The notes under the pieces are model-generated. The model saw nothing but the letters and a program-made list of their open reading frames with translations. It did not search any database and had not been told where the DNA came from. This document shows positions 30,859-62,761 of a DNA stretch of 64,000 nt, one piece after another. Position 1 is the stretch's first letter, and every line of letters starts with the position of its first letter. Both the position numbers and the translations under genes were made by a program. The stretch is from Ostrinia nubilalis (Eukaryota > Arthropoda > Insecta > Lepidoptera > Crambidae): NCBI RefSeq assembly GCF_963855985.1, contig NC_087096.1:2542001-2606000 (forward strand). Reading direction: 5' to 3'.

Positions 30859-33136
30859 ATGTTCAATATGTGGATTCTTAACACTTGCCATTGGTTTATC
30901 CTATTTATATGTGTTAATTCATTTTCATGTCTCATTTATTTAATTTATTATGGTCAACTCATAACTTCGAAATGTTTTGATACATTTGAAAACGAATACG
31001 ACTACATTATCGGTGAGTACTTTTTAAATACTTAATAAATCAACCATGCTTACTTTAAACCTCGTACCTAGTGTCTACCTACAGTTAGGTATACTTTGTT
31101 TGTTTGAATTTTGTTTAATCTACCCTGTTTTCCTTATAGTGGGTTCTGGCACTGCAGGATCAGTAATCGCCCACAGACTGGCTACAGAGACGAACTTCAC
31201 CTTCATAGTCTTGGAGGCAGGAGGGAAAGGGAGTCCACTCTTCGACATACCTGTACTTGGCCCAATGCTGCATGGATCCGTTTATGATTGGCAGCTGGAA
31301 ACTACACCGCAGGAGAATGCTTGCTTGGCTATGAATGATAAGGTAGGTTATGGTTTTCTTTCATGAGATGTTACTGTGATTATGTATGGCTCATAAGTAC
31401 TGATACCCTAATTATTATTACTTAATAGAAAGAAGAACTTGCCTATTTTGTGATACTGTTCTATAGGAATGTTCTATAAGTTCTTGTCATGAGTGCTCAA
31501 CTGCTCACAGTATTGTATGCTGTATGCTCTCAAGCATTACATAAAACCCTAAAAGATAACTTGTCTTGTACTCGAATATTCATCAAAATCATCTGTTTAA
31601 AAAGTTTGACATTTAATGTGATGAACCATACACAGAGCTATAAATAAATGTAACATAATTTTATGTTTATTTTAGATATGCAAACTGCCACAAGGAAAAA
31701 TTGTTGGAGGCTCTTCAAAACTGAACAACATGATACATGTAAGAGGAAATATATCTCATTATGTTGATTGGTTTCAAGGCAAATATACTAAGGGATTCAT
31801 TAAACAACAGTTCCAATTTGTAGAAGACAATATTTTACATTTAGACAATATTCAATATGAAAGTGAATTAGCTACTGCCATCGTAGAAGCTGCAAAAGAG
31901 CTAGGGTATAGCACTATAGAGGAATTCAATAAAGGGTTTAGAAAAAGCAAAGTGTCACAAAATAAAGGCAAAAGATGGTCCACATCTGATAATTTAGATA
32001 TTTCAAAACATATCCTAACAAATGCTTTAGTTGAAAAGGTTAATATTAAGGATGGCATAGCTAATGGAGTCACTGTATTTGTTTCAAATAAAAGTCATAA
32101 AATAAAAGCTAAGAGAGGTGTTATTCTGTCTGCAGGGGCCTACAATACTCCTAAAATTCTTGAATTATCAGGAATTGGTCCTAAGAGTGTATTGGATCCT
32201 TTAAATATTCCAGTTATAAAGGATTTGCCAGTGGGTTTTAATTTACAAGACCACATTGCAACTGGACTTGACTTAGTTCTATTCAACAAGTCTTTAGCTG
32301 TGAATCCTATGAATATGCTCAACCCTTTTAATGTTCATGAATATTTTGTAAATGGTAGAGGACCTTTGACCACCCCTGGTTGTGAAGCCATTGGTTTTTT
32401 ATCCACGAAAAATGATGAAACACCTGATTTACAGTTCATGGTCATGCCTGTAGGCATATCAGCAGATAGAGGTACACATTTAAAGAAATCCTTGGGTATT
32501 AACGAAACAGTATGGGAAAATTATTTTGTTAAAGCATTCGATAAACACGCCGCAACGATTTTACCAATAATTTTACATCCAAAAAGCAAAGGACAAGTTT
32601 ATATCAATAGTAACGACCCCAAAATGCCTCCTTGCGTAGACCCTAAGTACTTATCAAATAACGATGACGTGATAACTTTAATAGATGGGATCAAATTAGT
32701 CATTAAATTTGTAAACACATTGCCTATGAAAGCTTTAGGAGCTCATATAAATCCGATGCATTTCCCTGGGTGTGAAGAATTTGTTTTTTTTAGTGATAAA
32801 TATTGGGAATGCTATGTCAGACACTTGACTCTGACCAGCTATCATCCTGTAGGGACTTGCACTATGGGGCCTTCTTCATCGAGCAGTGTGGTAGATATTA
32901 ATTTCAGAGTCCATGGTGTAGAAAGCCTATTCATTGCTGATGCCTCAGTGTTACCCACTCTGCCAAGTGGAAATATAAATGCTGCCATAGCTATGATGGC
33001 TAGTTTGTTCTTTGAAACTGGTATAAAATTGTCTAATACTTATCACAGGGTTAATATAAGTTTAGTTTGTCACAAATCAGATTATATTTTTGAGAATTTA
33101 CAAAATGTATGCTTACGTAAACAACACAGTAGATAA
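30859..33136 (+). CDS. GMC-family FAD oxidoreductase (glucose dehydrogenase-like), 3 exons
   Basis: Exons 30859-31012, 31140-31342 and 31676-33136 join in frame to 605 residues, normal for insect GMC enzymes. A hydrophobic stretch at about residues 8-33 is a signal peptide or membrane anchor. The FAD-binding Rossmann motif is VGSGTAGS (52-59) followed by VLEAGG. GMC signature 1 is GGSSKLNNMIHVRGN at about 130. The C-terminal catalytic pair is His509 in SYHPVGT and an Asn near 554 in GNINAA. The family oxidises sugars, alcohols or ecdysone; the substrate cannot be read from the sequence. AATAAA lies at 33186. GMC genes usually cluster in insects, but none of its neighbours here is one. Confidence 0.93.
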
Positions 33137-36042: not shown

Positions 36043-37531
<1,489 letters not shown>

Positions 37532-42439: not shown

Positions 42440-45400
42440 TCACGAGAGGTGCTGGAAGAACCAGCTGGCTGTGTTGATAACGTGGTCCATTTCAGCAGCC
42501 GGCGAAGACAGCGAATGGTTGTCGTCATACATGTATATCCTGGAAAAACAAAATAGAAATTAGACCAAGCAAATGGGGCGTTAGTCGTTTCACACTACGA
42601 GAAATTCGGACCACCCGGGCATTTAAAAACTCCTTTTCAATGCGATCCGCATTGAAAAGGAGTTTTCACACTGGTGTGAATCATCGAAAAAAATGAATTT
42701 TTTATAGGACCTCGAATTTGAATCGCAATTCGAAAAAGGCGATTGGGTTGTACGTACACCGCAGTCCGAAGAGGACCTATTTACAAAGAATATTTGGGCC
42801 GTAAAAAGTTGTATGCTTTGAAAAGCTTTTTTTCAGTGTCCACACACTACCTATATCAGTTTTCAATTAACGTCAAATAGCTGTTCACTGAGATAGGAAG
42901 TAATTAAATAGTACTCATTAAATAAGTAAATTAAGTAGGTTTCGGACTACAATGCGGGCAGAGTGATTTATCTATATTTTGACAGTCCAATAACGGAATC
43001 TACGCAATTCTAGTGGCTGTGGCACACTGGCCTTGACTTCAGGTTGTCACTCAATATGACTTGGGGTGTAGCATATATAACTCATGAGATGATTCATGCT
43101 CGATTAATGCAATATTTTCCAACTAACATTGTCGATAGTGGAATTTTAATGATTATTCTTATTTCGAGTGAATAGTACCATTAACCCCGCCTGACCAAAC
43201 GGTCCTAATTTTATTCACTTTGGATTGTAATGTTTACTACGCAAAACTTTTCTTTTTCTCTCTCTCGTTGTGCGATCTAAATTAATAAAAAAATCCGTTG
43301 TACACACTGACCTAGTGGTAACCCCGTTGGCCTTGAGCCTCCTAGCATACTCCAATCCTTGGAAGAGCGGCACCCTCTTGTCACCACTTCCCAGCATCAT
43401 AGCGGTGGGCGCCTTGACCTTGTGCACGTGCGCGATGGGCGAGCAACGCCGCATGGCTCACTAAAGATTTTGTATAGGGCGCGCAACGAAAGTTGAGGCG
43501 AACACGTATTTACACTGACGTAATATTTGAATAACAAAAACGACACATTACACATCCAAGTCCAAATCGAATACACTAGCTACCTCGCTCTTGTTAAATG
43601 TCTGCAAGCGAGATAGAAAGCACTTGTCAGTCCGACTACGCAAGACGACAGCGTATACTGATACAAATCTTTGCTTGTGTTGATAGCCTCAACTCTCGTT
43701 ATGCGACCTATATCCATAAAAATCCGTTGTACACACTGACCTAGTGGTAACCCCATTAGCCTTGAGCCTCCTGGCGTACTCCAGTCCTTGGAAGAGCGGC
43801 ACCCTCTTATCGCCGCTTCCCAACATCATAGCGGTGGGCGCCTTGACCTTGTGCACGTGCGCGATGGGCGAGCAACGCCGCATGGCGAGCATATGCTCCT
43901 CGGACACCGGGCCCTTCTCTGTAAATTCGAATCCGGCTTCTACTGCGCACCTGTGTACAAATTATGATATTTGATTAAAAAAAAATCAAATTCAAAAATA
44001 TTTACCACAAGTGGCACATAGTTTAGACCAGTCTTTCCCAAAGTGGGCGATAACGCCCCCTTGAGGGCGCTGCAGGCTTAAAGGGGGGCGGTAAAAGACC
44101 CAGAAAAAAAAATCGGGACGTTGTGTAGAGGCTTGGGAGGCGTCATCTACTAGGAGGACTCTTAGACACCGACTGAGCTCGACTCTTGACTACAAAAATG
44201 GGGGGCGCTAAAAAATAATTTATTCTCAAAGTGGGCAGTAGACTAAATAAGTTTGGGAACCGCTGGTTTAGACCACAAGTGGCACTTATGAACGTCAAAA
44301 TATAGTTATAGAAAAGGTAGCCCTTATGGGGCACTTTACATGTCTCTTTATCTTTTGGGTCCTACCATAGGATTCTGTGCTAAGAGAAGGGATACCTAAA
44401 ATTGTTTGTATTTTTCAGATATGTTCATATATTCATACAGGGTGTTTGAAAGAGTGTTACGCCCGTATTCACAAACATTACTATGAGGTCTCACAGTGCG
44501 CGTGGAGTGGACGCACAGGGTCATACACGAACCAATCACAGAGCTCTATTCAACGCTGTACGTTCGATTTGCTGCTTCATTTAAGCAAGCATCGTTTGTA
44601 AACGGGCGTTAGACAAACACGTTGGACGTATAGGTAGAGCCATTTTGAGAATAAAAACTTAGCCATTTGATTCTATGAGAGCAACTTTTATTTTACACAA
44701 GTAAGTTAATCGAAACAGGCATTTTGACCTCACTTACCCGTCAGAGTTATCTGCATACTGTCCTTTAGTGGCCATGTCTATCAACGGATTCTTCATCACC
44801 ATCGCCAAGAACTCGTCCGGGCATTCCGAAGCCATGTGCCCCACTATGAAGCCCCCATAACTGCTCCCGTACAACAGAACTCCCTCGATTTGGTCGTCCC
44901 GCTCTAACGTGGAGGTGAGAGCGAAAAGGCAGTCGGTGACGTCATTGCCGGTGTTGCCGGGTAGGCATCGGACGTTCGCGTCGCCGTGCCCGGTCGAGCC
45001 GCGGTAGTTTATCCGGACGGAGGCCAGACCTAAAGATAGCCATTTGTCAAAAAAAATAGTATATTATGGTATTTATTGGCACTAATGCAAAACTTCATGT
45101 CACTTTAACTGTCAGATATTTTTTCTTTTACTACTTATTTTATGCAATTTCTATTTGATATGGATGGATATTAAATCTGATTTTAATTAAGATAATTCAT
45201 TGTTTCGTAGCATACTAGAGACGTGCGATATTTGTCTCAATGTCACTCGCCCCGCGTATTCTACGTAAGTTTATACCCTAGTTTTAAACAGATTCAATAT
45301 TAGTCAAGGAATTTTATAAGTAATGGGTATAAATTAGTAATCTTAAAAAGAAATTTGCGCTGTGGGATGCAAATAGATTTTTATTAGTAAGGCAGAATTT

Positions 45401-48400
45401 TATTGTGCGGGATTTATTTTCTAAGTTCGTGAGTAGTGAGTGGATATTTGTATTTATGTGTGTGTGATTTCCAAAACCCATGTCATTGGCATAAAAAGGA
45501 GCAAAGAAGAGAAAGAAGCAAATAAATGTGTGAGCATTACGTCAGTTGAAAGATTGAGCACCTACGGTAATTGTCATTGTCAGTCTGAATTAATGCAACT
45601 GTCAAAAAACTACAAAACTCGCGACTCATTCGAGTTATACTGTTGTGTATGTCGAAGTATAATTTGTCCCAAATGTAACAGGCGGTTTAGGTCAGGCCTC
45701 CGTTGCTATACTCTAAAATACTTACCAAAAATCTGACGACGTAGACTGAAGAAGTCCAGCTGCTAAATCAATCACAACACCGCAACAGAATCTAGTCTAC
45801 CACTTACCAATCCGCGATGTCAGTGGAATTGAACATCGTAGCGACATCTGTCACCGGGTTCCTCGTTGCCACAACTTTATATAGATCTGGGTATTGTCCA
45901 CTGAGGTGCGTGACCAGGAAGCCTCCGTGCGAGCCTCCGACAAGGCACAACTTGTTCTCATCGATCGGGAACTGTTTTAGGGCTATATCTGTGGCGAGCT
46001 TGCAGTCTACGACGTCAGCTGAGCCGACCCGCTTAGGCAGGAAGCCAACGGAAGCCTGGCCGCCGCCTGTGGACCCTCGGTAGTTAATTTGGAGCATCGC
46101 GAAGCCTGCAAGGAAGGCTTGGTTGGGTCACAAACGTCGACGTAACACGAGCATGTGTGTTTAGTGTATGTTGCAATAGAGGATAATTTAGGAAGAAGCG
46201 AGGATGAAGTTTAAGCTGTCTGTTGTTACCAGCAAGTGACAACAGGAAGATATGTAGCAAGCAAGCGATCATTAAATTTTAACTAGGTGTGTCGTAATGT
46301 TAATTTGCTATGTCCGTTGGGTTTTTGTTTCCAATAGCATATCAGATCTGTTGTTAGAGGCATAGCGCTCTATGTAGTTTCCTGCGGTAGTAGAAGGGTG
46401 CGGGAGGGGTGACGTAATATAGCTTACTACCCTCCTGAAATCTCGACTCGTGACATTATGTCCCCCACATTGTGCAGTCAGCGTCAAATAGTTCATGACA
46501 CCCAAGTGGCCAAAAAGTTCGCAACAAGTATTTGTTACAATTGTAATAACTTTTTGGCCAATTTGGGTATCACGAACTACTTGACGCTGACTGTACCACC
46601 ACAGGAACTTAGCTAATTATGCGCTATGCCTAAAAGTCCGGTCGCCGAGCAGATAGAATTTCGTAAAATGACCCCAAGCTACCCATCCTCGCGCGCGCGC
46701 GTAATTATATTGCTGTCGCGCTCGCACATTCACTGCGGCCGCCCGTCGCACAGTGACGGTAAGGATAAGGATGGGTAGCTTGGGGTCATTGTACGAAGTT
46801 CTATCTGCTCGGCGACCGGACTTCGTTAGTAAGCAGACTCACCGAGCATGGCGAAGAAAGCGGCTTCGCTAGCGAAGGCGTTGACGAAGCCCGAGTGCGG
46901 CCCGCCGTGCGGCCACACCACCAGCGGCAGCTTGCCTTCCTTCTGCGGCGCCATGTATATCGCCGTGAATGATTCTGTGGACAGCGACAAAGTTAATGAC
47001 ATATGTATGTATTTAACCTGTGCGATGATAAAAGAGCTCATAGACTAGTTAACCATTAACGGTATGCCCAAAAGATTTTTTTTTATCCACAACGTGGAAG
47101 CTCTTGTCCTGTATCTCACCTGATGGTAAGTGATGATCAGGCCGAAGGTGGAAGCGAGCTTCACCCGGAATCCTCAACCACAGAGGAACTGGCTATCATA
47201 CCTCTAACTGCTGGAACACAACAATGCTGTTAACATTGTTGTTATGGCCACAGACTTAGGTAAGATGGTGGTAGCTAGCCAGGCGGACTTAGAACAAGCC
47301 CTACCACCAACCAAACCGAACAGAAAAATCTACCCCCACTAGGAATCGAACCCGGGACCTCTGCGTCTGAAGCAAGTGGTCTAACCACTAGACCACAGAG
47401 GCGGTTAACTTTTAACTAGTCTATGAGCTCTTTTGTTTTTGGACCTTAAGAGAAGGGAATAAAGTTCAAAATATAGAGGGAAATATATTCCCACTACCGT
47501 ATAAAGGGTTAAAACACCCGCTTTTCCATCAGGAAAGGCTTTTCGCATACCCACTGGCAGGTTACGTGGGACTCTGGAGGGGCCTACCTACTAAAACCTG
47601 ATAGTGCCCTCCGGAACCAATGAAAAGCTGTGAGTTATTATTCTAAACTGAAGATTCGATCGGCTCAGTTACGACACCAACTGTTTGCCATACGCGACTA
47701 TCATTAGACCGTGCTAACACAGGTACTACCTCATCTTCAAGGGCGATAGATACTACAGTTACTATCTTCCGAGGTCTCTCGTGCGTGAGTTGCAAATACA
47801 TACTGCATCGAACTGGTGGCAAGATAGAGGCACGTCTGCCTCGCTCACGCGCACCCAAATGTGAACCGTAACGCCTCGTCTTAAGGTCGAGTATCAATGG
47901 AGAGGCACGTCGGCCGCCTCGCTCACTCGCACCCAAATGTGAACCGTACCGCCTGGTCTTAAAGTCTATTATCAATGTATCACTTAGGGCGATACATAAT
48001 GACGCTGTCTTCCGAATTCTCATGCGTAAGCTGCAAGTATTACACCGAGCTGGTAGCAAGAGAGAGGTGCGTCGGCCGTCTCGCTCACACGCACCCAAAT
48101 ATGAACCGTACCGCCTTGTCTTAAAGTCTAATATCAATGTACCATGTGTTCTAAGGGCGATACAAATTCTCATGCGTAAGCTGCAAGTATTACACGAAAC
48201 TGGTAGCAAGAGAGAGGCACATCGGCCGGCTCACTCAATCGCACCGAAATATGAACCGTACCGCCTCAGCTTAAGGTAGATTATGAATCAATGTAACATG
48301 TGTTCTAAGGGCGATACATACTGACGCTGTCCTCCGAATTCTCATGCGCAAGCTGCAAGTATTGCACCGAGCTAGTGGCGAGAGAGAGGCACATCGGCCG

Positions 48401-51400
48401 GCTCACTCACTCGCACCCAAATGTGAACCGTACCGCCTTGTCTTAAGGTCGAGTATCAATGTACAATACCCGGCGATAAATATTGCACATCGACCTTTAG
48501 AAAGAGACAATCGGCTAATTTCGGTTTCGTAGAGCGTTATCACTGTCGCACTTGAACAATGACTGACAATGACGTTTTGCCAAAGTGTAAACAAACTTTA
48601 TTTTAAATAGTGCAATAGATTTTGTGAATTAAATTGCTAAAAACTTTTGATAGTCGTGAAAGAAAAGTGGTTTACAATGTGTTAAAGTATTTGTCGAAGA
48701 GAAATACTAAGAGTTCGGACAATATTTTCATTGAATAATGTTTTGTCAATGGTATAGGTAGTGTGCGACAGAGATAACGCTCTACGAGCCGAAATTAACC
48801 GATTCTCTTTCCAAAGGTCGATGTGCAATATTTATTGCCCGTTATTGTAACATGTATTCTAAGAGCGATACATACTGACGCTGTCCTCCGAATTCTCATG
48901 CGTAAGCTGCAAGTATTGCACCGAGCTGGTAGCAAGAGAGAGAGGCACGTCGGCCGCCTCGCTCACTCGCACCCAGCGCGCGTCGGCCTCTGTTCCCGCC
49001 GTCGGCATTCGGCTCACGAACAACTGTAAAGCAAAGTGAACTTTATGCCGGTCACACACATTCTATAATTTGCGGACACTTGATCTAAGTTGTGCAGTCG
49101 ACTGAACATCTGACTATTAGCAAAGTCGCTCTTACTACAAATAAATAAGAGAATGTGTAACCCTATAAAGCTGCGACCTATGGACACAATACATCGTCAA
49201 TATCTATATTTATAAAAGAAAGTCGTGTTAGTTACTCCACTTATAACTCAAGAACGGCAGAACCGATTTAGCTGAAAATTGTCAGGGAGGTAGTTTAGAG
49301 CCAGGAGAAGGACATAGGATACTTTTTATCCCGTTCGAAATAAAAAAAAAGTCTGCTTATTTATTGCCATTAAGGCGGAACAAAGTTCGCCGGGTCAGCT
49401 AGTTGACAGATAAATGTCCATGCCCTCTAATGTTTGTATACTACAGGGACCAAACCTGTGACTTCTGAAGTAGGTAGTAGTAGAGTTTTCAAACACGCCA
49501 AATCAGACCAAAATATGGTTTTTTTTTTTTCAAATAGGTAAAAAATCCAATTCCATCGAACAACAAATATTTAAATTTTATTCCTTTATTACCTGTCCAG
49601 GAGTGGTCATGTTGGAGCAAACAGCCAGGACTACATTGGACTGTATGTCCAGCACCGACGTAGAGCCGGGCGTCGTCCTGTTCGATATGTCCACAATGTG
49701 TTTGCTTTCTGTAAAAACAATTATTGCATGTTAGAGTACGATCCGTGGAACGAGCCGTTGGCAACAAGCCGCATGATACTTAAGTAGTTTCAACCAAATG
49801 TCGTCCACTGCTGGGCAAAGGTCTCCCCCGAAGATTTCCTCCAAAGTTATCGACATAGCCTGCAGAATTGCCAAACTTAAGTGGCAATGGGCGGTTCACG
49901 TAACTCGTAGAACTGATGTCCGTTGTGACAGAAAAGACCTGAATACGTTTTTAGGCTGGCCTCTCAATCGGTGGACCGAAGATCTGGTGAAGGTCGTAGG
50001 AAGCACCTAGGATAGGCTCTGTGAAAATCTTTGGTAGAAGTTGTACTTTTTCTTAAGTTGCTACCTGTCTGCGGAAAAAACCATGTAAAACAAATAAACA
50101 TAGGTCCTTTTTCCAAGTGCTACACTTGCCTAAGTTGACCACGTAGGATCTAACTTCAGTCTGCTGCGGCGTGGAGAACAACACTCGCTTGTTGTCCACG
50201 AAGCAGCGCTCGGGCAGCGCCTGGCAGTACAGGCCGTGGAACGAGCCGTTGGCGATCTGGATCTCGGTCTCCACAATGTCTATGATGGTTGACACTTCGC
50301 TCTGGAATGTTATTGTAAAGGTACAGGATGGACTGATGCTTTATACTTCTCTTTTTAAGCCTAGGCGCAGACCACCGACTTCTAGTTGGCCGATAGTTGG
50401 GTCGGGCTGTTGATCAGTATGGAGATGTATGAAAGTGCGCACATTACACCAATTTGGTATCAGTCGATTCTTCATTCAAATTAGAATCGGGCCCAACTAT
50501 TGGCCAACTAAAAGTCGGTGGTCTGCGCGTAGGCTAAAATCCACATATCCGTTCGGACACCTTTAAGATTGGGTAAAGAAAGAAGGTAAGTTAGAGAAAT
50601 CCTTCATCGCAAAGGATAATGATCGTTAATAGAAACTGCTATTAACTGACTTTAAACTCGCTCTCTCCGTCTTTCTCCTCCTTTACTCTCCACGTGGTTT
50701 GCTGCAGCCACACCAAGTCAATCAACGTCGAATGAAACGCGAGATGACCTCACCGCCATGCCCTCACTAGACAACTCTTAATCTCCTCGCCCTCTCTCTT
50801 TCTCCTACTAATATTCTCATTTCCATCTCTTTTTTTCTTGATTTTTAACTATTACCTGTCCCTTCTTCATCATGACGAGCGCGTGGCAGGCGTGGTGTGG
50901 CCCGCCCGTGGTTCGCCAACAAACCAACAACCAAGTCACCTTCAGGCGAGAAGCGAGGCGACCTCAGGGTCATCATACCTTCACTAGACTGTCTTTCTCT
51001 CTCTCTCTCTCTCTCATACTATTCCTCACCTATCTTTCTCTGTCTATCTCTCTCTTTCATTTTCTTTCTTACCTGTCCCTTCTTCATCATGACAAGCGCG
51101 TGGCAGGCATGGTGTGGCCCACCCGTGGTTCTTTGCAACCACACCAAGTCGCCCTCGGGCGAGAACCGAGGCGACCTCACGGCCATGCCCTCACTAGACA
51201 ACTTCTATCTCTCACTCTCTATCATACTATTACTCACCTATCTTTCTCTGTCTCTCTCTTTCATTTTCTTTCTTACCTGTCCCTTCTTCATCATGACGAG
51301 GGCGTGGCAGGCGTGGTGTGGCCCGCCCGTGGTTCGCCAACCAACCAACAACCAAGTCACTTTCAGGCGAGAAGCGAGTCGACCTCAGGGTCATACCTTC

Positions 51401-54400
51401 ACTAGACAGTCTTTCTCTCTCTCTCATACTATTACTCACCTATCTTTCTCTGTCTATCTCTCTCTTTCATTTTCTCTCTTACCTGTCATTTCTTCATCAT
51501 GACGAGCGCGTGGCAGGCGTGGTGCGGCCCGCCCGTGGTTCGCTGCAGCCACACCAAAGAAGCGAGACGAGCTTACTGCCATGCCCTCGCTCGACAACTT
51601 CTCACAGTATTTCTCTTACTCAGTCGCCCTCTCTCTCACCCCCTACTATTACTCTCCTTTTTCTGCCCTCACTAGACAACTTCTTTCTCTCTCTCTCATA
51701 CTATTACTCACCTTTCCTACTCTCTCTCTCTCTATCTCTCTTACACTTTCTCTTCTCTTACCTGTCCCTTCTTCATCATAACAAGCGCGTAGCAGGCGTG
51801 GTGCGGCCCGCCCGTGGTTCGCCAACCAACCAACAACCAAGTCACCTTCAGGCGAGAAGCGAGGCGACCTCAGGGTCATACCTTCACTAGACAGTCTTTC
51901 TCTCTCTCTCTCTCTCTCATACTATTACTCACCTATCTTTCTCTGTCTATCTCTCTCTTTCATTTTCTTTCTTACCTGTCCCTTCTTCATCATGACGAGC
52001 GCGTGGCAGGCGTGGTGCGGCCCGCCCGTGGTTCGCCAACCAACCAACAACCAAGTCACCTTCAGGCGAGAAGCGAGGCGACCTCAGGGTCATACCTTCA
52101 CTAGACAGTCTTTCTCTCTCTCTCTCTCTCTCATACTATTACTCACCTATCTTTCTCTGTCTATCTCTCTCTTTCATTTTCTCTCTTACCTGTCCTTTCT
52201 TCACCATGACAAGCGCGTGGCAGGCGTGGTGTGGCCCGCCCGTGGTTCGCCAACCAACCAACAACCAAGTAACCTTCAGGCGAGAAGCGAGGCGACCTCA
52301 GGGTCATACCAACACTAGACAGTCTTTCTCTCTCTCTCTCTCATACTATTACTCATCTATCTTTCTCTGTCTATCTCTCTCTTTCATTTTCTTTCTTACC
52401 TGTCCCTTCTTCATCATGACAAGCGCGTGGCACGCGTGGTGTGGCCCGCCCGTGGTTCTTTGCAACCACACCAGATCACCCTCGGGCGAGAAGCGAGGCG
52501 ACCTTACTGCCATGCCTTCGCTAGATAGTTTCTCTGAAACACAAGAAAAAATATTGTTTATTATTCTAGTGATATCATATTATTATGGCCCCGCATGAGG
52601 AGAGTATTACTACTGGCCTGAGAAAATCTCCAACGTCGAGCTATTGGAACGCTGCCACGAAATTCCGATAGACCAGCAGATCAAGCGCCGCAAGTGGAAC
52701 TGGATTGGCCACACTCTCCGAAGGGATCCCGATCACATCCCCAAGCAGGCTCTGGATTGGAACCCGCAAGGAAAACGCAAACGTGGTCGCCCCAAGCAAA
52801 CTTGGCGGCGCACTGTGGCAGACGAGGCGAAGAAGATCGGCAAGACTTGGAGCGAGATCAAACACATAGTCACATTTGTCGGCCGTTTGGTGTAGTGGTT
52901 CAGTACGGACTACTATGCCGAGAGGTCCCGGGTTCGATTCCCGGCCGGGCAGAAATTGAAATGATGAATTTTAATTTCTGTGACGGGTCTGGGTGTGACT
53001 ATGTATAATATTAATGTATTTAAAAAAAAGTATATAAGTAGTATATCCGTTAAGCTAGCACCCATAACACAAGCATTAAGTTGCTTACTTTGGGGCTAGC
53101 TGGCGCTGTGTGAAATTGTCCAAAGATTTATTTATTTATTTATTTATAGCTTGTGCCGGTATACATGGCACATAGCTCAAGACCGAACGCAATGGAGGAC
53201 TGTTGTGGACGCCCTCTGCTCCATCTAGGGGACATAGGACCATAAGTCAAGCATGAGGAGAGTCCCATATAACCCACTGGCCGACCTCTTGGATCAGTGG
53301 ATATGCGCAAAGCATTTTCCGATGTCAAAAAACGGTCTCATAGAAGGGACGTGGCGTGGGCACGTGTCGCGTATCTACATTACCTAAAAGAGTCTCATCT
53401 TTTTTGTGACGTCACGATTCCATGAAGTTGAAAAGCTTGTATATTTTGTGTTTGCATCCTATTTCGACACCTTGTTCCATACATCGACTAGGCTTTAACT
53501 GAACTGTTTATTTATTTATGGAATAATTGACTTTAAAAACCTATGCATGATGCAATACTGTTATACTCACTCATAGTCCCATCATTGGTGAGGCTGAAGA
53601 TGTAGCTAGGCCTGTTGGTGCAGAACTTGAGGCCCAGGCGCCGCGGCTCCGTCTCCCAGGCCACGCCCACCACGCTCTCGCCGTCCGGCGCGAAAACAAC
53701 CTGGATATTGAACCTTATTTAGTATTGAATTGAAATGAATTCACATTTCCACGTATTCCCACCGGGCACTGGCCGTCAAGTTCGAGTAAATACAAATGAG
53801 TAGGTCATCTTCATAGAAACGCCCGAGCGGGGTTTATATGTAAACGCGCCAATACGTATGCGGCGCGCACGCACACACTGACAAAATTTAGCGTTGATTA
53901 GCGGTGAGTTGTAGTGTCCGACCGAAACCGAATATTCGGTTTCGGTTTCGTTTTCGGTTGAGTTTCGGTAAAAACACGAGTTTCGGTTTAGTTTCGTTTT
54001 CGGCGGCAAACTTGCCGAAACTACGACCGAAACCGAATGTGCATTCGGGAGTTTCCGCGCTGTTATCGGTCATGTTCGGCGCGTTCAATGAGCGAATGAA
54101 TCCGATCAGAGCCAATGTCGTGATTTGCTCGCTTGTTTGTTTGCTTGTTAGTTTTGTTTTGTTGTGGTGGCGAGTTTTCGAGTGATTTATTTTGAATTTG
54201 GTAAGTTTTATCTCGTTTTAAGTCGTTATAACATAAGAGCGGGTAGTAAACATAAAAAAAAAATTCAATATGACTGATAAAAGTATAATCAAGTTTAATC
54301 TACCCTATAATTTTTTTTTTGGTTGGCAAATGCTATACGTAAACAAACATTAGTTAGGTAGTAGTAATGACTATAGTGCATTTCATGGTGATAATATTAT

Positions 54401-60400: not shown

Positions 60401-62761
60401 ATATGCTCAGATAGCCCACATAGTTTTAAGCATACTCAAAATGAGAAATATTTATGTATATCCTATTGAATGAGTGGAAGGGAAGAGGGGTAAGCTTTTA
60501 GGACACTATGTCTTCGCCATTTGACCAGTAAGTTTAGAAGCCATTTTCACTTCTTCAGTTATAAAATCAGTCAGACAAAATGCAGTTTTTTCATTATCTT
60601 CTCTCTGAAGGTAATATTGATATCTCAATAACAACCACAGCGAAAACAATGCGGTGTGCTAACTTCTTGTCAGTTTCCGCTGATAACATCAACTGTGGTA
60701 ATTGTGGTGAAAAGCCAAATGGTTACGTTATTTTGATTCAACATGATGGGAAAGAAAATAATGTTGAAATGATATAAACCTTGTTGTGCTTTAGTATTAT
60801 CAGAGTAAATACAAATGAGTAGGTAATCTTCATAGAAACGCACCGAGCGCGATTTATATGTGAGCGCGCCAATACGTATGCGGCGCGCGCACACACTGAC
60901 AAAATTCGGCGCAACACCCCGCTAATCCCCGCTAAAATGTGTCAGTGTGTGCGTGCACCGCATACGTATTGGCGCGCTCACATACAAACCGCGCTTGGTG
61001 CGTTTCTATGAAGATGACCTACTCATTTGTATTTACTCTGGTATTATTGGGGAATGGTGTCAAATGCCCAATTAGGTGAAAATTGCACTCACGGTCGGCA
61101 TAGACGTCGCCGTGTAAGTCCAACGCGGTAAGGTTGATGCTGTGCAGCAGTTGGTTCTTCCTCCACACCTCCAAGTATTGCTTCTTCACATCCTTGTCCT
61201 TTTCTTCACGAATGACTGCCTTGAACGTCTCGCGAGGCGACACTGATGAGAGCACCCTGCAAAAGTGGTATAATTATAAATAATAAATATCCTTGGACAT
61301 TTTACACTGCGCTTCTAGTCCCAAACTAAGCGAAGCTTGTACTATGGGTACTAGACAACGGATATAAACATACTTAAATACATTTTTTTTTTAAATACAT
61401 ACATATTATACATAGAAAACACCCAGTCCAATACAAACAAATATGTTTATGCACACAAATGTTTGTACTGTGCGGGAATCGAACCCGCAACCTCCGGAAT
61501 AGTAGTCCGTTTCGAACCACTACACCAAACGGTATGACGTCATTCAATGCTCTCTTCGCCAATTTCTGAGCAGTGTTGCTAAGTGGTGCGCGAGTTAACT
61601 ATTACGGCTATTCTTAGCATCCATTCAGATCATTGAATTTAACTGGCTCAGAATTTTAGAACGAAAAACTCCATAATAGAAAGACATGGGTCATAACGCG
61701 ACATTTATGAATGAGTTACATTATGTACTCACGGCTTGAAGTTTCGCCTGCTATGCTGCAGCCGAGTTCACAAACAGAATCTTTCTATTTTAGTTGAAAT
61801 GAAACGCGAAAGTTTAAAATCTTATAAAAAATCCCAGTTATTTTTAACTTGATATTTTTTTTAGCACAATATATTTTTTTAAATTGAAAAAATGTTTCCT
61901 TTCAAATTTCATCAGATTTAATTAACATACTTTTTTACATCCTCAGTATCATTTTACATCTTAATAAGCTCGCAAAATGTGTATATTGTGACCCCTTTAC
62001 CTATCCTATTAAAAAAACTAAGCACAGCTGCTTTATAAATCTACGGTCTACACTAATATTGCAAAAAAAAAACATTTGATTGTTTGAATTGAATAGGTTC
62101 TGAAACTACTGGATTGATTTGAAAAATTATTTCACCATTAGAACCCTATATTATTTCTGATGAACATAGGCAGTATGAAGTTCGCAAGATCAGCTAGTGC
62201 TATAATAAAATAATACTCACTCAGTACTAATATCAATTCCAAATTCACTCTCTGCTATCACATTGAAGCTGTCATTCAACACATAGTTGTAAAGGAACTT
62301 AGTGTTCTTCCCTTTATCTAGATTCTTGACTGACCACCTTGATGATATTTTGGTACCATGTTTAATAAGCCTACCGCCCAAAACGGAAGGTATTTTTGAC
62401 AATGTTTTGTAGGCATTTATCATATTTTCAATCTGTAAATACAATGAAAATATTTTTTTAAGTCATAGAATAGGAAGTAGTATGTTTTGCTTCACATTCA
62501 CTACCAAAAGTAGAATTTATTTGATATTATAAGTCTTATGATTTGCCTTAAATGGTTTGCAAGTTAGTCGACATAAATCCAATTAATTGTCACCCAGTAA
62601 ATGCAGAAAAAATATTAAGAAAGAAGTTTTCTAAATCAACCAGGCTAGGAACCTAAGGCCTCTTTCATAGAGTCATCCACAACATTAGTCATAGCAGTAG
62701 GTATATTATGTACATACAATACAAAAATTTGCCAACATACCTGTGACGCCATTTTGATCAT
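42440..62761 (-). CDS. APEH: Acylaminoacyl-peptidase (acylamino-acid-releasing enzyme), 14 exons
   Basis: Exons in order: 62761-62741, 62432-62221, 61256-61093, 60363-60209, 55764-55627, 53700-53571, 52533-52400, 50301-50130, 49708-49593, 49023-48876, 46974-46843, 46105-45808, 43950-43741, 42539-42440. Together they give 2130 nt, 709 residues plus stop (human APEH is 732). Every phase matches. The first half is the beta-propeller (YVAEKKLPK, DWGEQLVGK, LKFCTNRPS, VRSPRFSPEG); the second half is the alpha/beta hydrolase. Catalytic residues are Ser566 in GGSHGGF, Asp654 in GSGDKRVP and His685 in DDNHSL; HGGPH at 486-490 forms the oxyanion hole. The cytosolic enzyme releases N-acylated residues from blocked peptides. 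Translation may start at the first ATG or at the fourth codon (MASQ). A minus-strand AATAAA lies at 42270-42265. Confidence 0.95.
43292..43457 (-). pseudogene. Partial copy of APEH exon 13 (Asp exon)
   Basis: This 166-bp block copies 43721-43886 with few changes, including GSGDKRVP and the donor. It lacks the 5' third of the exon. An in-frame TAG-TGA lies directly before the copied part, so it cannot be spliced in frame. The copy sits between exon 14 and the true exon 13, and both copies abut the same MITE end. Confidence 0.85.
43477..43708. mobile_element. MITE between the two exon-13 copies
   Basis: Inverted ends GGGCGCGCAACGAAAGTTGA and TCAACTCTCGTTATGCGACC lie in a TATA context. The right end of the same element is also found at about 43265, next to the partial exon copy, so the duplicated unit included it. 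Confidence 0.7.
44029..44265. mobile_element. hAT-like MITE with 8-bp target duplication
   Basis: The ends CAGTCTTTCCCAAAGT and GTTTGGGAACCGCTG are inverted, typical of hAT termini. GTTTAGAC flanks both sides (44021-44028 and 44266-44273). It lies in the intron between exons 13 and 12b. Confidence 0.85.
44456..44615. mobile_element. MITE, TACGCCCGTATTCACAAAC ends
   Basis: The left end CGCCCGTATTCACAAAC pairs with GTTTGTAAACGGGCG on the right. A CAGGGTGTTTG motif at about 44438 stands just outside the left end. Confidence 0.55.
44738..45029 (-). CDS. APEH: APEH exon 12b: diverged alternative nucleophile exon
   Basis: This is a second intact copy of the same module, 292 nt, open throughout, with acceptor TTTAG and donor GTAAGTG. 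It reads INYRGSTGHGDANV, LPGNTGND, then YGSSYGGFIVGH, so the GxSxGG elbow and serine are kept while neighbours change; NPLIDMAT matches NPVTDVAT of 12a. By eye about a third of residues are shared with 12a. Start phase 1 and end phase 2 equal those of 12a, so it can replace 12a but cannot be added to it (both together would shift the frame). An isoform with it would be 707 residues. Retained open frame and splice sites despite strong divergence argue for selection. The alternative is a relic of a second APEH gene. Confidence 0.8.
45808..46105 (-). CDS. APEH: APEH exon 12a: canonical nucleophile exon
   Basis: It carries INYRGSTGGGQ, the nucleophile elbow VGGSHGGF (Ser566) and the ending STDIADW, all close to the vertebrate enzyme. 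It starts in phase 1 (Gly codon split with exon 11) and ends in phase 2 (Trp codon completed by exon 13), between TTGCAG and GTAAGTG. Its 298 nt keep the frame when joined to exons 11 and 13. Confidence 0.95.
46475..46593. mobile_element. Hairpin MITE in the intron before APEH exon 12a
   Basis: The ends CAGTCAGCGTCAAATAGTTC and GAACTACTTGACGCTGACTG pair, and GGCCAAAAAGTT pairs with AACTTTTTGGCC further in. The whole 119 bp folds as one hairpin. Confidence 0.8.
46633..46823. mobile_element. Hairpin MITE next to the APEH exon 11 donor
   Basis: Arms starting AAGTCCGGTCGCCGAGCAG pair for about 55 bp, including GACCCCAAGCTACCCATCC. The core is GC-rich (CGCGCGCGCG). The element ends 19 bp from the exon 11 donor at 46842-46841. 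Confidence 0.85.
47030..47435. mobile_element. Palindromic MITE split by a family-B SINE
   Basis: The outer arms AAAGAGCTCATAGACTAGTT and their complement flank a minus-strand SINE (about 47070-47404). The SINE head reads GGTCTAGTGGTTAGACC with B box GGTTCGATTCC; its tail matches 11600-11690. The SINE landed at the centre of the older palindrome. Confidence 0.75.
47640..48480 (-). repeat. Tandem partial copies of APEH exon 10 and its donor flank
   Basis: Four to five copies of the 3' half of exon 10 (minus strand TGGGTGCGAGTGAGCGAGGC through CAGCTTACGCATGAGAAT) lie in the intron after exon 10, at a spacing of about 150-170 bp. Each has a foreign 5' end (GGCGGTACGGTTCACATT) in place of the exon's start and acceptor, so none is a usable exon. 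The 188-residue open frame across them is in the wrong frame for APEH. Confidence 0.75.
48472..48840. mobile_element. MITE with about 70-bp inverted ends
   Basis: The left arm ATAAATATTGCACATCGACC...GTAGAGCGTTATC pairs with GATAACGCTCTACG...GGTCGATGTGCAATATTTAT on the right. It separates true exon 10 from its partial copies. Confidence 0.75.
48876..49023 (-). CDS. APEH: APEH exon 10 (functional copy)
   Basis: Acceptor CTTTACAG and donor A/GTATGT bound 148 nt. The product LFVSRMPTAGTEADARWVRV aligns with the GFLPSAGKEQSVLWV region of the vertebrate propeller and ends in QLTHENSEDSV. Only this copy has the 5' half and an acceptor. Confidence 0.85.
49203..49402 (+). mobile_element. Short non-autonomous Helitron
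   Basis: It starts TCTATATTTATAAAAGAAAG after an A and ends GCCGGGTCAGCTAG before a T. The interior ACTCAAGAACGGCAGAACCG is the common lepidopteran Helitron text. It lies between APEH exons 10 and 9. Confidence 0.85.
49798..50010 (+). mobile_element. RTE-type LINE fragment
   Basis: The plus strand reads RIAKLKWQWAVHVTRRTDVR, then PLNRWTEDLVKVVGS, which is the C-terminal part of RTE reverse transcriptase ORFs. It is partial and lies antisense in an APEH intron. Confidence 0.7.
50130..50301 (-). CDS. APEH: APEH exon 8, with a GC donor
   Basis: The exon encodes SEVSTIIDIV, SFHGLYCQALPERC and VLFSTPQQTEVRSYVVN. It ends ...AACTTAG and is followed by GCAAGTG rather than GT. AG/GCAAGT is the usual consensus for GC-AG introns, and the join to exon 9 (Glu codon split 1+2) keeps the frame. 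Confidence 0.88.
50359..50535. mobile_element. MITE, CTAGGCGCAGACCACCGAC family, copy 2
   Basis: It has the same termini and interior as 2666-2840. It lies in the intron between exons 8 and 7, about 60 bp from the exon 8 acceptor. Confidence 0.75.
50690..52330 (-). repeat. Tandem array of APEH exon 7 copies in CT-rich DNA
   Basis: Copies of exon 7 with its donor (minus strand AGGGACAG/GTAAG) recur with the donor-equivalent exon end at 50856, 51073, 51277, 51483, 51762, 51976 and 52190, plus a remnant at about 50690-50780. The functional copy at 52400 follows. Spacing is 204-217 bp except one gap of 279. Five copies carry the same 4-base expansion in a CCAACCAACCAACAACC tract that breaks the frame; the one ending at 51073 keeps the exact exon 7 protein; the one ending at 51483 is internally deleted. 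All lack the TTTCAG acceptor, and purine-rich sequence (minus strand) stands there instead. Confidence 0.85.
52400..52533 (-). CDS. APEH: APEH exon 7 (functional copy)
   Basis: TTGTGTTTCAG precedes the exon and GTAAGAAAG follows. The product has VRSPRFSPEGDLVWLQ and GGPHHACHALVMMKKGQ, matching the SSPRLSPDQ...IVYLQ and PHHQCSQL region of the vertebrate enzyme. It is the only array member with both splice sites and an intact frame. Confidence 0.92.
52600..53240 (+). mobile_element. LINE C-terminal fragment interrupted by a SINE
   Basis: 52620-52872 reads QQIKRRKWNWIGHTLRRDP, KQALDWNPQGKRKRGRPKQT and TWSEIKHI, a LINE reverse transcriptase C-terminus. After the SINE (52881-53147) the same frame type resumes as AQDRTQWRTVVDALCS. 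The LINE tail is therefore older than the SINE. Confidence 0.75.
52881..53147 (+). mobile_element. tRNA-derived SINE, family A, copy 2
   Basis: A box TGGTGTAGTGG, B box GGTTCGATTCCCGG, body GCAGAAATTGAAATGATGAA and a TTTATTTATTTATTTAT tail are all complete. It is inserted in the LINE fragment 52600-53240. Confidence 0.9.
53912..55131. mobile_element. hAT-like non-autonomous element, 1.22 kb
   Basis: The ends TAGTGTCCGACCGAAAC and GTTTCGGTCGGACACTA are inverted. The 8-bp duplication GTGAGTTG flanks it (53904-53911 and 55132-55139). Subterminal regions are arrays of TTTCGG/TTTCGT motifs, as in transposase-binding repeats. No transposase frame remains. Confidence 0.88.
54716..54974 (+). mobile_element. 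tRNA-derived SINE, family A, copy 3
   Basis: GCCGTTTGGTGTAGTGG, the B box GGTTCGATTCCCGG and the family body are present, ending in ATTTATTTATT. It sits inside the hAT-like element. Confidence 0.88.
55262..55587 (+). mobile_element. Family-B SINE body, interrupted
   Basis: TCCTCCGTGGTTAAGGATTC...CTTCCACCTTCGG and ...GCCAAGAGCTTCCTCGTTG match the SINE bodies at 11600-11690 and 47070-47404. About 170 bp of other sequence is inserted in the middle. The tRNA head is missing. It ends about 40 bp from APEH exon 5. Confidence 0.6.
55797..56112. mobile_element. MITE containing a second MITE
   Basis: The outer ends GGCCAACGAGAAGCGATAC and GTATCGCTTCTCGTTGGCC are inverted. Inside, 55926-56046 has its own ends (GGGGTGCACCATCTTACTTT and a complementary ATAGATGGTGCAACCC). 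Confidence 0.7.
56144..58365. mobile_element. hAT-like element, 2.2 kb, carrying a LINE
   Basis: The ends TAGGGGTTGCAAGTCCCGG and CCCGGGAGCAAACCCTA are inverted, and GGTAACAG is duplicated exactly on both sides (56136-56143 and 58366-58373). The subterminal parts are rich in CCGGGAAA/GGGAATTCCCGG motifs. No hAT transposase is seen; the middle is filled by the LINE at 56385-57955. Confidence 0.88.
56385..57955 (-). pseudogene. Degenerate non-LTR retrotransposon with RNase H
   Basis: Minus-strand frames, broken by shifts near 57780, 57220 and 57050, carry in order an RT thumb (YLGVTFDQKLIWNSHL), ALWLYTAVVRPIITYA, an RNase H domain (INSDSQAALLAL, WVPGHSNIEGNEVADELA) and a Cys/His segment (CRFCHTEEETAMHVLCSC). 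The 3' end is a (TAA)n-like run (AATAATAATAATAG). RNase H plus TAA repeats point to the I clade. The copy is 5'-truncated within the RT and inactive. Confidence 0.85.
59246..59761. mobile_element. MITE, CAGTGTGAGTCACGTTAAAG ends
   Basis: Arms of at least 100 bp (through ACTAGACCTATTTTTATCG and AAAAAATTTTTGAGATTTTT) are inverted, with TA at both ends. The arms are nearly identical, so it is probably recent. Confidence 0.85.
59764..59994. mobile_element. MITE, TAACAGAAGGTAAACTC ends
   Basis: The 17-bp ends TAACAGAAGGTAAACTC and GAGTTTACCTTCTGTTA are perfect inverted repeats flanked by TA. It shares its left TA with the element ending at 59761, so the two abut. Confidence 0.8.
60801..61040. mobile_element. 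MITE, CAGAGTAAATACAAATGAG ends, intact copy
   Basis: Near-perfect arms of about 100 bp run through GCGCCAATACGTATGCGG. GTATTAT stands on both sides (60794-60800 and 61041-61047). It ends 52 bp from the donor of APEH exon 3 and is the intact form of the split element at 53783-55253. Confidence 0.85.
61278..61532 (-). mobile_element. tRNA-derived SINE, family A, copy 4
   Basis: Minus strand head CCGTTTGGTGTAGTGG and B box GGTTCGATTCCCGC, then the family body and an AT-rich tail. It starts 22 bp upstream of the exon 3 acceptor on the minus strand, leaving little room for the original polypyrimidine tract and branch point. Confidence 0.85.
62090..62197 (+). mobile_element. Helitron 3' end
   Basis: ATAGGTTCTGAAACTACTGG ... 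TTCGCAAGATCAGCTAG followed by T is the 3' half of the short Helitron family seen at 49203-49402. The element ends 24 bp from the donor side of exon 2. Confidence 0.6.
62741..62761 (-). CDS. APEH: APEH exon 1, start codon exon
   Basis: It encodes MIKMASQ and ends at a CAG/GTATG donor in phase 0. A TTTTCAG at 62777-62771 upstream could be the acceptor of a 5' UTR intron. Either ATG (62761 or 62752) may be used. Confidence 0.75.

Follow-up and report, generated by a model that had tools for sequence, protein, structure and literature searches.

The window analysed here, a stretch of 64,000 nucleotides (nt) of the Ostrinia nubilalis genome (contig NC_087096.1, positions 2,542,001 to 2,606,000), carries on its reverse strand the gene of the acylaminoacyl-peptidase APEH, in which the exon encoding the catalytic serine is present in two versions, 12a and 12b. 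We propose, with a probability of roughly 0.7, that mutually exclusive splicing of this anciently duplicated exon yields two enzymes from the single-copy lepidopteran APEH gene: the A isoform would be an ordinary acylaminoacyl-peptidase, and the B isoform an active serine hydrolase with an enlarged, more polar S1 pocket.

The coding gene extends over 42440-62752 (window coordinates, reverse strand unless stated otherwise), with exon 1 at 62741-62752. Its 14 exon positions make up a complete gene, and the joined exons encode 706 residues with 12a and 704 with 12b; an in-frame ATG further upstream gives the 709-residue form found in the database. The 706-residue 12a isoform differs from the Ostrinia furnacalis protein named 'acylamino-acid-releasing enzyme-like isoform X1' at 2 of 706 residues. 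Exon 11 (46843-46974), which encodes the HGGPH motif of the oxyanion loop, is the common upstream partner of both versions of exon 12. Exon 12a (45808-46105, 298 nt) is of the canonical A type and encodes the catalytic Ser (GGSHGG), the Asp624 equivalent and the start of the S1 helix (STDIADW), and exon 12b (44738-45029, 292 nt), of the B type, encodes an alternative of the same block (GSSYGG ... KGQYADNSDG). Downstream, both are followed by exon 13 (43741-43950), with the catalytic Asp (GSGDKRVP) and the Arg677 equivalent, and by exon 14 (42440-42539), with the catalytic His (DDNHSLSS) and the stop codon. Residue numbers are those of pig APEH, assigned by alignment to structure 7px8; by this alignment, and by position in exons 11-14, the Ser-Asp-His triad and the HGGPH loop are present. 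Both Pfam domains of the window's B isoform scored above the cut-off (PF19283, 109.7 bits; PF00326, 86.3 bits).

Both exons lie where the original prediction had placed them, and each has GT-AG sites (cag/GCTTCG..GATTG/gtaagtgg for 12a and tag/GTCTGG..GACGG/gtaagtgag for 12b, the slash marking the exon border). Each starts in phase 1 and ends in phase 2, as had been claimed, and either of them joins exon 11 to exon 13 in an open frame. When 12a and 12b are joined together between exons 11 and 13, the frame runs into a stop within 12b, at the 29th codon past the 12a/12b joint codon, and when exon 12 is skipped a stop follows at the third codon past the joint codon of exons 11 and 13. Messages with both exons or with neither would thus lose the frame and decay, which would enforce an either/or choice. 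Steric exclusion, which relies on a short intron, is not a fitting explanation here, as 778 nt separate the two exons, and since both have GT-AG sites, no clash of U2 and U12 sites is apparent. The claim that 12b has stayed open while diverging from 12a held for the open frame, although the identity, given as about a third, was approximately 42% at the protein level. The predicted difference in the nucleophile motif, with HGGPH, Asp and His left on the common exons, was also recovered. The two isoforms of the window are approximately 92% identical (646/704).

The B-type block appears to be an isoform of one single-copy APEH gene, as indicated by database gene models, designated X1 and X2, in other species. 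Before the block, the X1 and X2 proteins are identical in Cydia pomonella (510/510), Choristoneura fumiferana (528/528), Pieris brassicae (508/508) and Vanessa atalanta (539/539), and after it each pair differs by one residue, which fits a split codon; within the block, the A and B forms of these same four species are 45-46% identical. In Loxostege and Leptidea, where the two forms come from separate models, the identity upstream of the block is 99.0% and 99.5%, with 103/104 and 78/80 residues matching after it. In the Ostrinia genome, the 12b peptide matched only itself and 12a, by which a second APEH gene was ruled out as the source of 12b, and both isoforms matched only the window's own locus among 12 family S9 loci compared (of 29 Pfam places).

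The presence of 12b in relatives, proposed earlier as a check, was borne out, with B-type blocks in proteins of 26 other lepidopteran species. Together with Ostrinia this makes 27 species, which we take to represent about ten families. A protein search with the 12b part gave 11 matches and a search with the Manduca B block gave 26 proteins from 26 species, all of them lepidopteran. Block classing was applied to 78 of 120 proteins (those with lepidopteran names, some unnamed and some outgroups; the 120 were those listed out of 307 matches) and assigned 22 of them, from 22 species, to the B type: Loxostege, Galleria, Plodia, Amyelois, Leguminivora, four Cydia, Choristoneura, Manduca, Chrysodeixis, two Helicoverpa, Battus, two Pieris, Leptidea, Aricia, Nymphalis, Vanessa and Maniola. 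The caddisfly protein had an A block only and no B block in this classing. An isoform number is carried by 19 of the 26 B records. Four gene models (two Spodoptera, Iphiclides and Eumeta) contain both blocks, B after A, which shows the exon order in these species; they look like prediction errors in which the predictor joined both exons. No separate Ostrinia B record was seen in the protein set, which was clustered at 90%; as the isoforms are approximately 92% identical, a B form can hide within a cluster, and the absence of a B record means little. Phase logic, the 26 species, the same-species isoform pairs and the single copy together support the mutually exclusive, functional use that had been suggested for the two exons.

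A tree built from 83 blocks placed all 26 B rows in one branch with support 100/100, which indicates that B arose once, before the sampled lepidopteran families separated. A starred branch (96/83) grouped B with 14 outgroup rows, including the caddisfly, and with the single A row of Eumeta, and set these off from the rest of A; two of the outgroup rows were placed within A, and A was not one side of any branch. The joining point of B is thus not firm: B may be older than Lepidoptera, or its branch may have been drawn outwards, and with 101 columns and long branches the tree gives no firm date. The residue table described below was made without P0002, P0041 and P0093 (mis-joined or short), P0012 (identical to the window's protein) and P0069 (a near copy of P0037); the tree was made also without P0014, P0040, P0043 and P0047, and the blocks of P0002 (B only), P0041, P0067 and P0089 were recut. 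The comparison of identities between species shows constraint on 12b at the protein level. Among 21 pairs of seven species, the identity of B was higher than that of exons 1-11 in 15 and lower in 6, and for B, exons 1-11 and 12a the values were 89, 80 and 91% between Ostrinia and Loxostege, and 57, 57 and 68% between Ostrinia and Pieris.

The exchange is targeted at particular residues around the active site. According to the pig APEH study (PMC12514842), helix 625-632 forms the S1 pocket, and exon 12 carries its first half, 625-628; the amide of His588 is half of the oxyanion site, and Asp624 pairs by charge with Arg677, the residue that holds the acetyl group. Exon 12 encodes Ser587, His588, Asp624 and 625-628, and the oxyanion loop, Asp and His come from exons 11, 13 and 14. 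In the B rows, Ser587, Asp624, Lys619 and Asn625 were each found in 26/26, position 588 was Tyr or Phe in 26/26, Tyr622 was found in 25/26, and Gly628 in 25 of the 25 readable rows. Among the 57 A and outgroup rows the counts were 55 for Met619, 57 for Ile625, 57 for His588 and 56 for Trp628, where seven extra outgroup rows had been cut by the GGSHGG motif and are not independent evidence for Ser587 and His588. By alignment, the nucleophile is retained and the S1 wall is altered at the same positions in every B row. The replacements Ile625 to Asn and Trp628 to Gly, with Met619 to Lys nearby, would make the B pocket larger and more polar, and the B isoform, as a serine hydrolase, could accept other N-acyl or ester substrates and so differ from A in substrate range.

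Several observations weigh against this interpretation. The names X1 and X2 belong to predicted models and not to reads, and the activity and distinct specificity of B are likewise predictions. The identity of B was below that of 12a in 19 of the 21 species pairs. In the predicted B model, the predicted local distance difference test score (pLDDT) was 74-75 at residues 591-620, compared to 79-88 in A. The RNA helix at the 12b acceptor, described below, was examined in one species only.

The less sure modelling of the segment after the serine, together with the change in B of residues invariant in A (His588, Ile625 and Trp628), could also mean that the B isoform is spliced and folded and is not a working peptidase, but a regulatory or dominant-negative subunit of the APEH tetramer or solely a binder of N-acylated peptides. 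Mixed tetramers are possible, as mammalian APEH is a tetramer (PMC12514842). However, Ser587 and Asp624 are kept throughout the B rows and the catalytic Asp and His lie on common exons, and a lasting loss of catalysis would be expected to free the serine; we consider this explanation improbable, though the best of the rivals. Even less probable is that 12b represents rare or dead-end splicing, in which an out-of-frame 12a+12b message is degraded and so lowers the APEH level, while the B protein as such has no function. The stop within 12b and the four models joining both exons would agree with it, albeit these models seem to be errors; yet B identity equals or exceeds that of exons 1-11 in 15/21 pairs and its catalytic and pocket residues are fixed, a constraint that a poison exon does not need. 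Highly improbable, and contradicted by the data, is that 12b is a stray exon, whether recently copied in tandem, decayed or a fragment of another APEH gene. Exons 7, 10 and 13 of this gene do have young tandem copies, but the DNA identity of these is 77-100%, whereas 12a and 12b have no DNA match at E 1e-4 and a protein identity of 42%. In other species A and B are isoforms of one gene, and the Ostrinia genome shows no further copy.

The tandem copies show that the APEH gene has repeatedly gained recent exon pieces. Exon 7 has seven further copies at 50856-52323, in the intron that follows it, approximately 200 nt apart and 78-90% identical in DNA, and one of them (51073-51206) has no stop through the exon-7 protein (44/44 residues by tblastn). 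Five partial tandem pieces of exon 10 lie at 47777-48419, and one partial copy of exon 13, of 146 nt and 94% identical, at 43312-43457. Divergence from 12a ruled out 12b as a recent tandem duplicate. A DPP4-like S9 gene elsewhere (C7:13056212-13057088, forward strand) has a tandem array with a period of 240, 3.6 copies and 96% matches; it contains the nucleophile exon (GWSYGG), which shows that a catalytic-serine exon has been copied recently in another gene as well.

With regard to how one of the two exclusive exons might be chosen, a candidate RNA helix was found in this genome only, between an arm across the 12b 3' splice site (45017-45034) and an intronic arm complementary to the 12b acceptor (45686-45703), pairing at 17/18 bases. 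Its duplex energy of -37.3 kcal/mol was the best of 18 site-intron pairs and was reached by 0/200 shuffles and by 1/1500 in a longer shuffle run; a count of ungapped pairing gave 0/500. In a fold of 1041 nt the acceptor G was paired with probability 1.0. A second predicted helix joins 46003-46018 in exon 12a to an arm in the intron, 60 nt downstream of the 12a donor (45733-45748), pairing at 15/16 bases, with 1/200 shuffles as good. With 18 tests in one species taken into account, the helix over the 12b acceptor is no more than suggestive; it may help to choose the exon. Extending the proposal of two exclusive enzymes, the gene could have become, before the families split, a toggle between standard APEH and a second hydrolase whose wide polar S1 pocket (Lys619, Asn625, Gly628) serves other N-acyl peptides or esters, switched by a hairpin that buries the 12b acceptor until unwound; in this full form the idea is tentative, and we think it rather unlikely. 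Two hairpins were also noted in intron 11, at 46472-46596 and 46634-46823, with arms of 45 nt (82%) and 56 nt (96%), which resemble short inverted-repeat transposable elements.

Elsewhere in the gene, the exon 8 donor at 50130 is GC and not GT (TTAG/gcaagtg), and the one match to Rfam, tRNA-like and in intron 10 (47331-47402; 32.5 bits, cut-off 29), is possibly a tRNA-derived repeat. The neighbours in the window are a GMC oxidoreductase (31730-33136, forward strand) and a forkhead gene (36782-37531, reverse strand). They are consistent with the order glucose dehydrogenase, FoxJ1 and acylamino-acid-releasing enzyme (AARE) of a clone linked to the Heliconius erato colour-pattern locus Cr (PMC2515155), a report in which AARE is listed twice, as a split gene or two genes.

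APEH has been tied to protein turnover and organophosphate binding (PMC12514842). If both forms are active, they would offer a matched natural comparison by which the influence of S1 residues on APEH specificity could be tested, and the splice switch would be amenable to study in laboratory moths. Active-site variety in serine hydrolases usually comes from gene duplication; many moths and butterflies would here retain a single gene in which alternative exons supply the nucleophile and part of the S1 wall. No paper on exclusive exons in APEH was found among the results listed by full-text literature searches, with subscription literature mostly outside them. The earlier statement that no APEH with swappable active-site exons had been described therefore stands for the literature searched. 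X1/X2 models of both forms are, however, already present in databases; the B sequence is thus public, and the novelty lies in reading the two as exclusive exons.

The moth gene shares with APEH/AARE enzymes of family S9 (pig 7px8 and 9gne) the domains APEH_N and Peptidase_S9, the fold, the triad and the oxyanion loop, and its 12a block is canonical. Compared to pig APEH, it has the alternative exon 12b for the nucleophile and S1-wall block, in which Met619, Ile625, Trp628 and His588 are replaced by Lys, Asn, Gly and Tyr/Phe, respectively. In insect Dscam, mutually exclusive exons are controlled by intronic RNA pairing that reaches the variable exon; the moth candidate, in contrast, consists of a single helix at a single acceptor, seen in one genome, and lacks a set of competing partners. 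CYP4F3 and pyruvate kinase PKM are enzymes with tandemly duplicated, mutually exclusive exons, either of which is used, with altered properties. Unlike in these two, what is exchanged in the moth gene is a peptidase block that contains both the catalytic nucleophile and the S1 pocket wall.
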